A stretch of 64,000 bases of DNA, taken from assembly GCF_900187015.1 (NCBI RefSeq), contig NZ_LT906479.1, forward strand, positions 806,001 to 870,000. Direction: 5' to 3'. The notes below the pieces were generated by a model, which saw only the letters and a program-made list of their open reading frames with translations, ran no database searches and had not been told where the DNA came from. The stretch is from Serratia ficaria. Its GTDB lineage: Bacteria; Pseudomonadota; Gammaproteobacteria; Enterobacterales; Enterobacteriaceae. The position numbers and the translations under genes were made by a program. Shown in pieces: positions 14,532 to 38,652 of the stretch. Each line of letters starts with the position of its first letter. Positions within the stretch are counted from its first letter, which is position 1.

Positions 14532-14601
14532 GTTGCACTCCTGAGAAATAAGGGGCAAGGCATCTGAGGGGGCGGGGGCGGTTACGCCGGATCGCTGGGC
14601 T

Positions 14602-14705
14602 CAAATCCCTCCGCCGGTATTGACCGGATCAGGTTCGACGGGTGTGCTCTCAGCGGAAAAGCGGCCGGTCGCGCCAGCTCATTTTCCGCACCCCGTTGAG
14701 ACGGC
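14602..14705 (-). promoter_or_regulatory. TPP riboswitch (THI element) upstream of thiBPQ
   Basis: The minus strand contains the thi-box signatures in order: TCAACGGGGTGC, GCTGAGA, ACCCGTCGAACCTGATCCGG, AATACCGGCG and AGGGATTTGAG. Together they form the P1-P5 aptamer known upstream of thiB in E. coli, where the leader is also detected as the small RNA SroA. It lies about 70 bases before the thiB start, suiting TPP-dependent repression. Confidence 0.96.
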
Positions 14706-24511: not shown

Positions 24512-24543
24512 TAAAAAAAAACCCGCGCAGTAGCGCGGGTTTC
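24512..24543 (-). terminator. leu operon attenuator terminator
   Basis: On the minus strand, AACCCGCGC-TACT-GCGCGGGTT is followed by a run of T residues that ends shortly before the leuA start. It lies downstream of leuL, in the place and form of the leucine attenuator. Confidence 0.92.
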
Positions 24544-24562
24544 TTATGGATGATGGGCTGAG

Positions 24563-24646
24563 TCAGCTCTGAACTCCGTCCACCAGCATACCGCGCAAAC
24601 AAGATGCGTTAAGTAGTAGGCCTAGTAGACGGTGAGTACGGATCAT
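24563..24646 (-). CDS. leuL: leu operon leader peptide LeuL
   Basis: 27 codons from ATG: MIRTHRLLGLLLNASCLRGM and seven more residues to TGA. It contains a cluster of five leucine codons within six (CTA CTA GGC CTA CTA CTT), four of them the rare CTA, suited to ribosome stalling when charged leucyl-tRNA is low. Sequence differs from E. coli LeuL except for the leucine cluster and the following NA, but size and position before the attenuator agree. Confidence 0.92.
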   Translation of the reverse strand: MIRTHRLLGLLLNASCLRGMLVDGVQS

Positions 24647-25337
24647 GAGGGTTCAGCTTCTCTTAAATTTGTGTCGTTGCCTAATTTGATACTTTATTGG
24701 CCTGGCGATGTCAACACCTGATTGAATGCACGGGTAATTCGCCGCGGGCAAATTGGCGCCGGATGAAAGCAGAGGATAGTTCGGTGAAAAAGCGATGGGT
24801 CAGCGTAAAAGAAGGGGGCGGTTTGCGCGCTGCTTAGCATAAACGAATCGAATATATACGGCGGCAATTGCTTCTACTTCTAATTGGGTTAAAATTTATG
24901 GGAGGCAATAAGTGGCATCGACTGCGGAGAATGAGAGGCTTTTTATTGTTTTAGCAAATGCTTTAATGAAAATGCATGTGTTTTATTTATTGCCTTGAGA
25001 ATAAAACCCTCCGTCGCGGTGTGTTTACATAAATTATTGATGGGTTTTAAGTAGTTTGATGGTTCATGATGTGTTTTTATAGTTTGTCTTATAAGACGAG
25101 GCCGATTTTAGCGCCTCATGATTATTGCTACCTATTTATTAGTATGACATTGGCTGAGCCTCTCTCGGTTGAATGAGCGGCCTCTGCCGTGCGCCCTGTA
25201 TTCGTGTTATGGCATGACATTTATCAACTGAATTGAAGGGTGATGGTTGTGTCGTGTGTGAATAAATCAATGCGGCTTATCATTGTTTCTTCTGCATAGG
25301 GATTGGATTAACTACACAGGATAGAGTGGAGTGAGAT
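24647..25337. other. AT-rich intergenic region between leuLABCD and leuO
   Basis: About 690 bases with no credible gene on either strand. Much more AT-rich than its surroundings, with many T/A tracts and TTTATTG-type runs. It must hold the leu operon promoter (just beyond 24660) and the leuO promoter. In E. coli this divergent region is bound by H-NS and LeuO; such control is likely here but not proven by any exact site I can point to. Confidence 0.6.
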
Positions 25338-33652: not shown

Positions 33653-34111
33653 ATGTTCCGTGGGGCAACGATGGTCAACCTCGACAGCAAAGGGCGGCTT
33701 GCCGTACCAACCCGATATCGGGATTTGCTGAACGAGGAATCGCAAGGCCAAATGGTCTGTACCATTGACCTCCATCAGCCCTGCCTGCTGCTTTATCCTT
33801 TACCCGAATGGGAAATTATTGAACAAAAATTGTCCCGTCTGTCGAGCATGAATCCCGCCGAGCGCCGCGTTCAGCGCTTGCTGTTGGGGCATGCCAGTGA
33901 GTGTCAGATGGACAGCGCCGGCCGTTTGCTGTTAGCCAGTACGCTGCGGCAACACGCCGGACTCACGAAAGAAGTGATGCTGGTCGGGCAGTTCAACAAG
34001 TTTGAACTGTGGGATGAACAGACCTGGTATCAACAAGTCAAGGATGATATTGACGCTGAACAGTCGACTCAGGAACCGTTGTCTGAGCGGCTACAGGACT
34101 TGTCGCTATAA
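33653..34111 (+). CDS. mraZ: Transcriptional repressor MraZ
   Basis: AbrB-like (SpoVT-AbrB double) DNA-binding protein that represses the dcw cluster. 152 residues, as in E. coli, with both repeats showing the DxxGR pattern: [19 protein letters not shown] and [16 protein letters not shown]. The N-terminus MFRGAT and the C-terminus [10 protein letters not shown] are identical to E. coli. First gene of the cluster, two bases before rsmH. Confidence 0.97.
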
Positions 34112-35414: not shown

Positions 35415-37178
35415 ATGAAAGCAGCGCGCCCCGGTAAGTTGAAACGCCAGGAAGATCAGGCCAGCTTTGTAAGCTGGCGTTTTGCGTTGCTGTGCGGCTG
35501 TATTTTACTGGCGCTGGTGGGGTTGATGCTGCGCGTGGCCTATCTGCAGGTCATCAACCCGGATCGCCTGGTGAAAGAAGGCGACATGCGTTCGCTGCGG
35601 GTGCAGGAAGTGCCTACCGCGCGCGGCATGATCAGCGATCGCGCCGGCCGGCCGTTGGCGGTGAGCGTGCCGGTCAACGCCATCTGGGCCGATCCGAAAG
35701 AGCTGAACGAACGCGGCGGCATTACGCTGGACAGCCGCTGGAAGGCGCTGTCCGACGCGCTGAATATCCCGCTGGATCAGCTCTCCAACCGCATCAACGC
35801 CAACCCGAAAGGGCGCTTCGTTTACCTGGCGCGTCAGGTGAACCCGGCGGTCGGCGATTATATCCGCAAGCTGAAGCTGCCGGGGATTAACCTGCGGCAG
35901 GAATCGCGCCGTTACTACCCGGCCGGGCAGGTCACCTCGCACATCATCGGCGTCACCAACATTGACGGCCAGGGCATCGAAGGCGTCGAGAAGAGTTTCG
36001 ACCGCTGGCTGACCGGGCAACCGGGCGAAAGAACCGTGCGCAAGGACCGCTATGGCCGGGTGATTGAGGACATCTCCTCGGTCGACAGCCAGGCGGCGCA
36101 TAACCTGGTGCTGAGCGTCGATGAACGCCTGCAGGCGCTGGTGTACCGCGAGCTGAACAACGCCGTGGCCTTCAACAAGGCCGAGTCCGGCACCGCGGTG
36201 CTGATAGACGTGAACACCGGCGAGGTGTTGGCGATGGCCAACAGCCCGTCCTACAACCCGAACAACATGGCCGGTACGCCGAAAGACACCATGCGTAACC
36301 GCGCTATCACCGATATTTTTGAGCCTGGTTCTACCGTAAAACCGATGGTGGTGATGACCGCCTTACAGAATGGCGTGGTGAAAGAGAACAGCGTGCTGAA
36401 CACCATTCCTTTCCGCATTCAGGGCCACGAAATTAAAGACGTGGCGCGCTATGCGGAGCTGTCGGTAACCGGGATCTTGCAGAAGTCGAGTAACGTCGGC
36501 GTTACCAAGCTGGCGTTAGCGATGCCGTCCTCGGCGTTAGTAGATACTTACTCTCGTTTTGGACTGGGAAAGGCGACCAATTTGGGGCTGGTCGGAGAAA
36601 GCAGTGGCATATACCCAAAAAAACAACGGTGGTCTGACATAGAGAGGGCCACCTTCTCTTTCGGCTACGGGCTAATGGTAACTCCGTTACAGTTGGCGCG
36701 AGTCTACGCAACGATCGGCAGCCTGGGCGTGTATCGCCCATTGTCGATCACCAAGGTTGACCCGCCGGTCGCCGGCGAACGCGTTTTCCCTGAACCACTG
36801 GTGCGCACCGTGGTGCACATGATGGAAAGCGTGGCCCTGCCGGGCGGCGGCGGCGTGAAAGCCGCCATCAAGGGGTACCGTATCGCCATTAAAACCGGTA
36901 CCGCCAAAAAGGTCGGTCCGGACGGCAAATACGTCAACCGATACCTCGCTTATACCGCCGGCGTCGCGCCGGCCAGTAATCCCCGTTTTGCTCTGGTGGT
37001 GGTCATCAACGACCCGCAGGGCGGGAAGTACTATGGCGGCGCAATTTCCGCGCCGGTGTTTGGCGCCATCATGGGCGGCGTATTGCGCACCATGAACGTC
37101 GAACCGGACGCATTGCCTACCAGCGATAAAAGCGAATTAGTGACTAACAAAAAAGAGGGTTCAGGTGGCAGATCGTAA
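35415..37178 (+). CDS. ftsI: Septal peptidoglycan transpeptidase FtsI (PBP3)
   Basis: Class B penicillin-binding protein that crosslinks septal peptidoglycan. 587 residues. Transmembrane anchor at about 20-40, pedestal domain, then the transpeptidase motifs: SxxK with active serine S306 in [12 protein letters not shown] in LQKSSNVG (about 358), and KTG in AIKTGTAKK (about 493). The coding sequence contains an internal block (about 36510-36715) of unusual codons, with an embedded RNA candidate; see the separate entry. It overlaps murE by 14 bases. Confidence 0.97.
36510..36715 (+). ncRNA. FtsO-like ORF-internal RNA candidate within ftsI (RybB sponge)
   Basis: About 200 bases of ftsI use rare synonymous codons (TTA three times, ATA twice, GGA, CTA, GTA, AGG, CGA) while the rest of the gene strongly prefers CTG, GGC and CGC. 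Inside it, AAAGCAGTGGC at 36598-36608 is an 11-base perfect complement to the 5' end of RybB as I recall it (GCCACUGCUUU). E. coli has FtsO, an RNA internal to ftsI that sponges RybB. Boundaries here are a guess from codon use; existence is inferred. Confidence 0.6.
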
Positions 37179-38652
37179 TTTGCGCGACTTACTCGCCCCG
37201 TGGGTGCCGACGGCACCCGGGCGCGCGCTGCGGGAAATGACATTAGACAGCCGTATTGCGGCTGCCGGGGATCTGTTTGTCGCCGTTGCCGGCCATCAAA
37301 CGGATGGCCGCCGCTATATTCCGCAGGCCATCGCGCAGGGCGTCGCCGCCGTGATCGCCGAAGCTGACGGCCAGGCCGAAGACGGCGCCATCGTCGAAAT
37401 GCACGGCGTGCCGGTTATCTACCTGAGCCAACTGAACCAGCGCCTTTCCGCGCTGGCCGGGCGTTTTTACCACCAGCCGGCGGAGCGTCTGCGCCTGGTG
37501 GGCGTCACCGGCACCAACGGCAAAACCACCACCACCCAGCTGCTGGCGCAGTGGAGCCAACTGTTGGGCGAGACCAGCGCGGTGATGGGCACCGTCGGCA
37601 ACGGTCTGCTGGGCCAGGTGTGCCCGACGGAGAATACCACCGGTTCTGCGGTGGATGTTCAACACGTATTAAACGATCTGGCTGAGCGGGGCGCGACCTT
37701 CGCCGCCATGGAAGTGTCTTCCCACGGGCTGGTGCAGCACCGGGTGGCGGCATTGCCGTTCGCCGCGGCGGTGTTCACCAACCTGAGCCGCGATCACCTG
37801 GATTACCACGGCGACATGGCCAATTACGAAGCCGCCAAATGGTCGCTGTTCGCCGGCCACGACGTGGGCCAGGCGATCATCAACGCCGACGATGAAGTCG
37901 GCCAGCGCTGGCTGAGCAAGCTGCCGGATGCGGTGGCGGTCACCCTGCACGACAACCTGCAGCCGGGCTGTCACGGCCGCTGGCTGAAAACCACCGCGGT
38001 CAGCTATCACGACAACGGCGCCACCATTCGCTTCAGCTCCAGCTGGGGCGACGGCGAAATCGAAAGCCGCCTGATGGGCGCCTTCAACGTCAGCAACCTG
38101 CTGTTGGCGCTGGCGACGCTGCTGTCGCTGGGTTATCCGCTGGATCAGCTGGTGGAAACCGGCAACCGTCTGCAGCCGGTCTGCGGCCGGATGGAAGTGT
38201 TTAACGCGCCGGGCAAACCGACGGTGGTGGTGGACTACGCCCACACCCCGGATGCGTTGGAAAAAGCGCTGGAAGCGGCGCGCCTGCACTGCCAGGGGCA
38301 GCTGTGGTGCGTGTTCGGCTGCGGCGGCGATCGCGACAAGGGCAAGCGCCCGCTGATGGGCGGCATCGCCGAACAGTTCGCCGATCGGGTGGTGATCACC
38401 GATGACAACCCGCGCACCGAAGAGCCGCGGGCGATCATCGCCGATATTCTTGCCGGGCTGCTGGACGCCGGGCAGGCGCTGGTGATCCACGGCCGCGCCG
38501 AGGCGGTGACCAGCGCCATCATGCAGGCGCAAGAGCAGGATGTGGTGCTGGTGGCGGGCAAAGGCCACGAGGATTACCAACTGGTGGGCAACCGCCGCCT
38601 GGATTACTCCGACCGCACCACGGTCGCCCGGCTGCTGGGGGTGTTGGCATGA
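37165..38652 (+). CDS. murE: UDP-MurNAc-L-Ala-D-Glu:meso-diaminopimelate ligase
   Basis: Mur ligase that adds meso-diaminopimelate to the peptidoglycan stem. 495 residues from a GTG start ([15 protein letters not shown]), as in E. coli. ATP-binding loop [15 protein letters not shown] (about 112) and the meso-DAP specificity motif DNPR in [14 protein letters not shown] (about 413). Its start lies within the ftsI end. Confidence 0.97.

Follow-up and report, generated by a model that had tools for sequence, protein, structure and literature searches.

FtsO, published in 2021 (PMC7815308), is an RNA located inside the ftsI open reading frame of E. coli, where it acts as a sponge of the small RNA RybB. 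The RNA itself, its pairing with RybB and its effect on RybB are demonstrated in that report, according to which FtsO is probably cut from the ftsI mRNA, binds RybB, as probed with compensatory mutants, contacts it on Hfq and lowers the RybB level. A connection between division and envelope stress is a suggestion made in the same report for E. coli. It also describes STnc475 of Salmonella as an FtsO homologue and gives, as an average over 18 gammaproteobacterial species, a wobble-position identity of 91% over ftsO versus 67% over ftsI. A matching internal 3' end of ftsI has been reported from K. pneumoniae, S. enterica, ETEC and S. flexneri (PMC10687069), and the reported half-life of FtsO is 12.8 min, that of the ftsI mRNA 0.6 min (PMC10349824). 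RbsZ and 3'ETS-leuZ are described as RybB sponges too, but they derive from other transcripts (PMC7815308). AceK-int and other ORF-internal RNAs likewise originate within coding sequences, but in other genes and with other partners (PMC7815308, PMC10687069). In the literature searched, no paper linked FtsO as a sponge with Serratia.

The ftsI Locus of Serratia ficaria

The window, meaning the whole stretch of 64 kb that was analysed, corresponds to G000:C1:806001-870000 of the 5.21 Mb genome of Serratia ficaria.

35415..37178, plus strand: ftsI (PBP3), 587 amino acids, host gene of the putative RNA, compared with 80 ftsI loci of other genomes and MG1655 ftsI
36484..36657, plus strand: putative FtsO homologue, located by projecting E. 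coli b4810 through the alignment with MG1655 (ends by projection)

The FtsI protein of the window reaches an identity of up to 98% to Serratia loci. In MG1655, ftsO (b4810) is annotated at 92485-92658 (L082:3486-3659), and with window position 36480 aligned to position 3482 of L082, the block of ftsI treated here is collinear with it. This annotation and PMC7815308 confirm what the preliminary description, made from the bare letters, had stated about E. coli FtsO as an ORF-internal RNA of ftsI that sponges RybB. The two loci are alike in gene, position, RybB seed complement, predicted stem-loops and synonymous conservation. E. coli FtsO has been seen as an RNA, whereas the Serratia RNA is predicted from sequence. 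Collinearity with b4810, the constraint and the matching RybB support the idea that a regulatory RNA has been kept in this segment, and the block is very probably the Serratia orthologue of FtsO, an ftsI-derived RybB sponge acting in the manner proposed below. By analogy, we infer that FtsO would be made and would work alike in S. ficaria. The locus is a relative of a described RNA, and the new facts, on reach, losses and predicted pairing, are modest.

About 200 bases of ftsI had been said to switch to rare synonymous codons, and the counts agree with this. The seven kinds of rare codon named make up 13 of the 68 codons in 36510-36715 versus 22 of 588 in the whole gene (P 6e-8 by the hypergeometric distribution, with n=69). 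Of the 2218 codons in six other dcw genes, ftsL excluded, 43 are of these kinds. GC3 is 0.59 in the block versus 0.77 in the remainder of ftsI. The block placed at 36510..36715 thus exists, but its limits had to be redrawn, as the constrained segment, 36486-36704, is slightly wider on the left and narrower on the right. The same genome harbours a second ftsI-like gene (L231, G000:C1:2566947-2568626) with 50% identity; it lacks the FtsO codon pattern, with consensus codons at 16/37 positions in the block and 133/221 outside.

Synonymous Constraint

The alignment of ftsI across Enterobacterales that the preliminary description had proposed was carried out with two sets of sequences, one of 82 ftsI sequences (the window, MG1655 and 80 loci) and one of 99 rows, consisting of 77 genus rows, restricted to RybB carriers, the window, MG1655 and 20 named loci.

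36486..36704, plus strand: segment of maximal synonymous constraint (99-row set, column permutations)
36658..36704, plus strand: constrained tail of 47 nt (codons 415-430), beyond the 3' end projected from E. coli FtsO

In the first set, the mean pairwise codon identity rises from a background of about 0.5 to values of 0.6 to 0.87 across the block. In the second, none of 5000 column permutations matched the value observed for 36486-36704, with windows of 12, 20, 40 and 60 codons. The assumed constraint at the nucleotide level is therefore real, in the form of raised synonymous conservation across Enterobacterales. With 8-codon windows, the top position falls to a hairpin near the start of ftsI, which was matched in 10 of 5000 permutations and is treated separately below. 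A scan of 1210 12-codon windows in mraZ, rsmH, ftsL, ftsI and murE gave 0.32, 0.32 and 0.29 for the three top windows of FtsO, 0.17 for the tail and 0.10 for 36531-36569, against a background of 1111 windows with a mean of 0.00, a standard deviation of 0.055 and a maximum of 0.24. For the tail, 0 of 20000 background draws were as constrained as codons 415-430.

The constraint is high at the predicted stem-loops H1, H2 and H3 (listed below) with the adjoining RybB site, in the A-rich linker, at stem-loop H4 and in the tail; codons 380-387 within FtsO show no synonymous constraint. Weaker constraint windows were noted at 33992-34033, 37165-37206 and 37234-37281, close to the end of mraZ and at the start of murE, with mean excesses of 0.24, 0.20 and 0.18; the start of murE overlaps the end of ftsI.

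RybB and Its Seed Site

One RybB match (RF00110, 105.8 bits) is present in the genome. Its rybB starts GCCACTGCTTTTC and the 5' end of the RNA is GCCACTGCTTTTCTTTG, so that the 11-base complement in ftsI is perfect with the RybB of the same genome; the species carries the expected 5' end and not a divergent one.

36598..36608, plus strand: RybB seed site AAAGCAGTGGC, 11 Watson-Crick pairs with RybB nt 1-11

Within the 64 kb, AAAGCAGTGGC is unique on both strands. In the whole genome (5.2 Mb), the 11-mer occurs five times, one occurrence being rybB itself, compared with ten for a reversed control pattern. The match alone is therefore not rare, and its weight stems from its location in the apparent FtsO homologue and from its conservation.

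The pairing was also expected to be at least as long as in E. coli, and it comprises 11 contiguous Watson-Crick pairs in Serratia versus 8 in E. coli, because codon 396 is AGC (Ser) in the former and CGC (Arg) in the latter. Of 107 rows, 65 have a Ser codon here (AGC/AGT) and 41 an Arg codon, and the unrooted tree shows a single switch between the two. L232, L233 and L236, which are the nearest outgroup rows, have AGT, so Arg is probably the derived state. Among the 99 fetched family rows, 22 show 11 contiguous pairs and 37 exactly 8, the E. coli type.

A site was regarded as kept when RybB nt 1-8 were paired, with G-U allowed. By this definition, it is kept in 91 of the 107 rows and absent from 16, the tree requiring 11 changes or more. 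In the site-kept rows, codon 394 is GGA or GGG in 88/91 (background 0.19), its third base preserving the pairing with RybB, and codon 393, which also belongs to H3, is GTC or GTT in 90/91 (background 0.40). At both codons, the third bases that would pair with RybB are kept although the usual codon use would break the pairing.

RybB 5' ends were read in 50 stretches (L131 has no RybB) and compared with the FtsO sites for 40 genomes. No convincing compensatory change between seed and site was found in these 40 genomes, and the seed is nearly invariant. In G254, whose RybB lies below the family cut-off, one pair is apparently swapped and another lost. The RybB of the Symbiopectobacterium-type loci L113 and L114 reads GCCGCTGC instead of GCCACTGC, and the FtsO site can still pair via G-U. 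The record L054 is named Serratia marcescens, but by eye its ftsI and RybB resemble those of Candidatus Symbiopectobacterium; it is possibly mislabelled.

Predicted Fold and Extended Pairing

36485..36523, plus strand: predicted 5' stem-loop H1, paired cells 99% in the 91 site-kept rows, 77% and 85% (two parts) in the 16 site-lost rows
36539..36552, plus strand: predicted stem-loop H2, paired 95% in site-kept versus 86% in site-lost rows
36574..36594, plus strand: predicted stem-loop H3, paired 99% versus 83%, with RybB pairing as the alternative
36628..36653, plus strand: predicted 3' stem-loop H4, followed by TTCT, paired 99% versus 78%
36591..36608, plus strand: predicted extended RybB pairing, 18 nt of FtsO with RybB nt 1-8 and 10-19, one bulged U

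The fold is kept in the rows that keep the site, as the paired cells show, but in the window it is only mildly better than that of shuffled sequences (z -1.5, 18/200 as good); for MG1655 FtsO, z is -2.8. Changes on both sides of a helix are few (H1a 0, H1b 7, H2 1, H3 6 and H4 0 cells), and covariation contributes little to the RNAalifold score (-1.83).

With the genome's own RybB, the predicted contact consists of 18 bp interrupted by one bulge, and of a second block, namely 8 bp, a bulged U, 10 bp and then 6 bp between RybB CCCCAA and FtsO TTGGGG. The latter motif (36582-36587) lies in the loop of H3 and is complementary to RybB nt 22-27. The predicted pairing gain is -28.9 kcal/mol for the window and -23.1 for MG1655, both computed with the RybB of the window genome. 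Opening the site would cost 3.25 kcal/mol, which ranks it 19 of 162 windows in predicted accessibility (median 6.38), and of the 88 positions in the 64 kb that match the RybB seed, it forms the top duplex. When internal folding is ignored, RybB 1-38 pairs with FtsO at -48.0 in the window versus -36.3 for the best of 500 shuffles, and at -43.1 in MG1655 versus -38.5 for the best shuffle.

RybB 20-38 alone is no better than shuffles on FtsO (56/500 as good in the window, 125/500 in MG1655). The second contact therefore rests on its adjacency to the seed, on a test of cognate pairs and on an association with the RybB CCCC motif. All 72 cognate RybB/FtsO pairs beat their own shuffled mean, and the cognate mean of -41.8 compares with -40.7 (sd 0.17) in 60 re-dealings of partners, a difference from which relatedness is not removed. 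The CCCC motif (about nt 22-25 of RybB) is present in 42 of 47 site-kept rows versus 2 of 12 site-lost rows. Over seven independent pairs on the tree, 3.9 point the same way and 0.1 the opposite way (p 0.125). If the last C became U, a G-U pair would still be possible. Coevolution of CCCC with the FtsO site is suggestive only, and the second pairing block is inferred from the modelled duplex.

A broader proposal is that a two-part contact (the seed, and RybB nt 22-27 with the H3 loop) has shaped the coevolution of FtsO and RybB, that CCCC drifts in lineages without FtsO (Dickeya and others), and that the tail is a part of the precursor cut off in making FtsO. Taken together, these three statements are put forward tentatively, and are less likely than not to hold.

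Distribution and Loss

The site and the helices are repeatedly absent together. In site-kept versus site-lost rows, consensus codons amount to 0.86 versus 0.49 in FtsO outside the site, 0.84 versus 0.47 in the tail and 0.62 versus 0.50 in the background; at the ftsI 5' hairpin, they amount to 0.87 versus 0.88. FtsO and its tail thus sink together to the background level, and the 5' hairpin behaves independently. Both Dickeya loci are among the site-lost rows, and both Dickeya genomes retain the RybB seed. L148, the tree neighbour of the Dickeya ftsI loci L063 and L069, shares with them the absence of site and codon pattern along with a RybB in which the seed is retained.

RybB was taken as present with E up to 0.001 (two of 93 below the gathering score). 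A site of 8 Watson-Crick pairs occurs in 61/80 rows with RybB versus 1/19 without it (P 1e-8), or, with reduced genomes excluded, in 60/77 versus 0/5 (P 0.001). If G-U is allowed, the association is weaker (73/80 versus 9/19, P 6e-5; 72/77 versus 2/5 with reduced genomes excluded, P 0.006). A repeated search with laxer filters in 10 of the 19 RybB-less genomes yielded no RybB that reached the cut-off. On the tree, about three of four independent pairs agree in the absence of RybB and site and none is opposite (p 0.25). This asymmetry, in which RybB occurs without the site but the strict site rarely without RybB, is what a sponge would be predicted to show, within the four independent pairs that the tree offers.

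Alternative Explanations

The block may be constrained for another RNA function, such as mRNA folding or processing or pairing with a partner like CpxQ, the match to RybB being incidental. The constraint does extend far beyond the seed and includes a tail outside the E. coli RNA, and CpxQ is the second FtsO partner in the E. coli RIL-seq data reported in PMC7815308. However, the third bases at codons 393 and 394 preserve the pairs with RybB, the site co-occurs with RybB, and helices, tail and site decay jointly. As a source of the remaining constraint, CpxQ found no support with the one version tried, that of E. coli, whose predicted duplex with FtsO is no better than that of shuffled CpxQ (185/300 as good). 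A function independent of RybB is therefore improbable.

Rare codons could also slow translation for the folding or membrane insertion of FtsI, a view to which the enrichment of seven rare-codon kinds lends itself. This explanation is rejected as highly improbable, since the partners in the helices are kept, conservation extends to common codons of the block (ACC in 82/82 sequences at codon 388, GCG in 81/82 at codon 367) and codons 393-394 retain the very bases that pair with RybB. Moreover, Dickeya-type rows use different codons in the block (consensus codons 0.32-0.42).

Recombination of a foreign segment would account for the lower GC3 of the block, but it can practically be dismissed, given that the site is spread over the family (91/107 rows), that the block is present in E. 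coli, and that outgroup families show at least 8 Watson-Crick pairs in 1/19 rows (2/19 with G-U).

A Separate Hairpin at the Start of ftsI

35460..35478, plus strand: terminator-like hairpin inside the start of ftsI, separate from FtsO, GCCAGCTTTGTAAGCTGGC followed by GTTTT

The scan window around this hairpin, 35445-35489, is the most constrained of mraZ-rsmH-ftsL-ftsI-murE, and the constraint itself is placed at 35451-35489. Base 2 of codon 17 (G/A) and base 3 of codon 20 (C/T) agree as a pair in 103/106 rows, with six and seven changes, respectively; three of four independent pairs point the same way and none the opposite way (p 0.25). The fold is not unusual compared with shuffles (z -0.5), and the region contains two terminator-like sites, this hairpin being listed among them, versus a shuffle mean of 2.8. 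The MG1655 annotation shows no feature of its own at this position, and a search of main-text literature found nothing on it. The hairpin could act as a partial terminator, form the 3' end of an RNA derived from upstream, or have a role related to translation. Elsewhere in the window, Rfam matches to a leucine operon leader (24515-24662) and a TPP riboswitch (14588-14705), on the minus strand, are ordinary.

Proposed Mechanism and Biological Meaning

If the Serratia RNA follows its E. coli relative, the ftsI mRNA would be cut within the open reading frame, as PMC7815308 proposes for E. coli, and the part at 36484-36657 would persist as a folded RNA of about 174 nt with a stem-loop at either end. 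The exposed bases separating H3 from the 3' stem-loop would pair with the 5' end of RybB, and the pairing could span RybB nt 1 to about 27, running through 8 bp and, beyond a bulged U, a further 10 bp into a second block of 6 bp that would open the H3 hairpin. RybB would thereby be drawn off its mRNA targets and its level lowered, allowing porin mRNA to recover after envelope stress. If the broader proposal of a two-part contact holds, the sponge would, besides the mRNA targets, hold the inner sequence of RybB in place.

For the family, this would mean that a two-layer code, in which one stretch of DNA specifies both a protein and a regulatory RNA, is retained in a large part of Enterobacterales and missing from several lineages. 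Natural knock-outs such as Dickeya and variants in strength, with Ser or Arg at codon 396, may serve to probe the purpose of FtsO. The second contact, if true, would mean that a sponge shapes the very sRNA that it controls.
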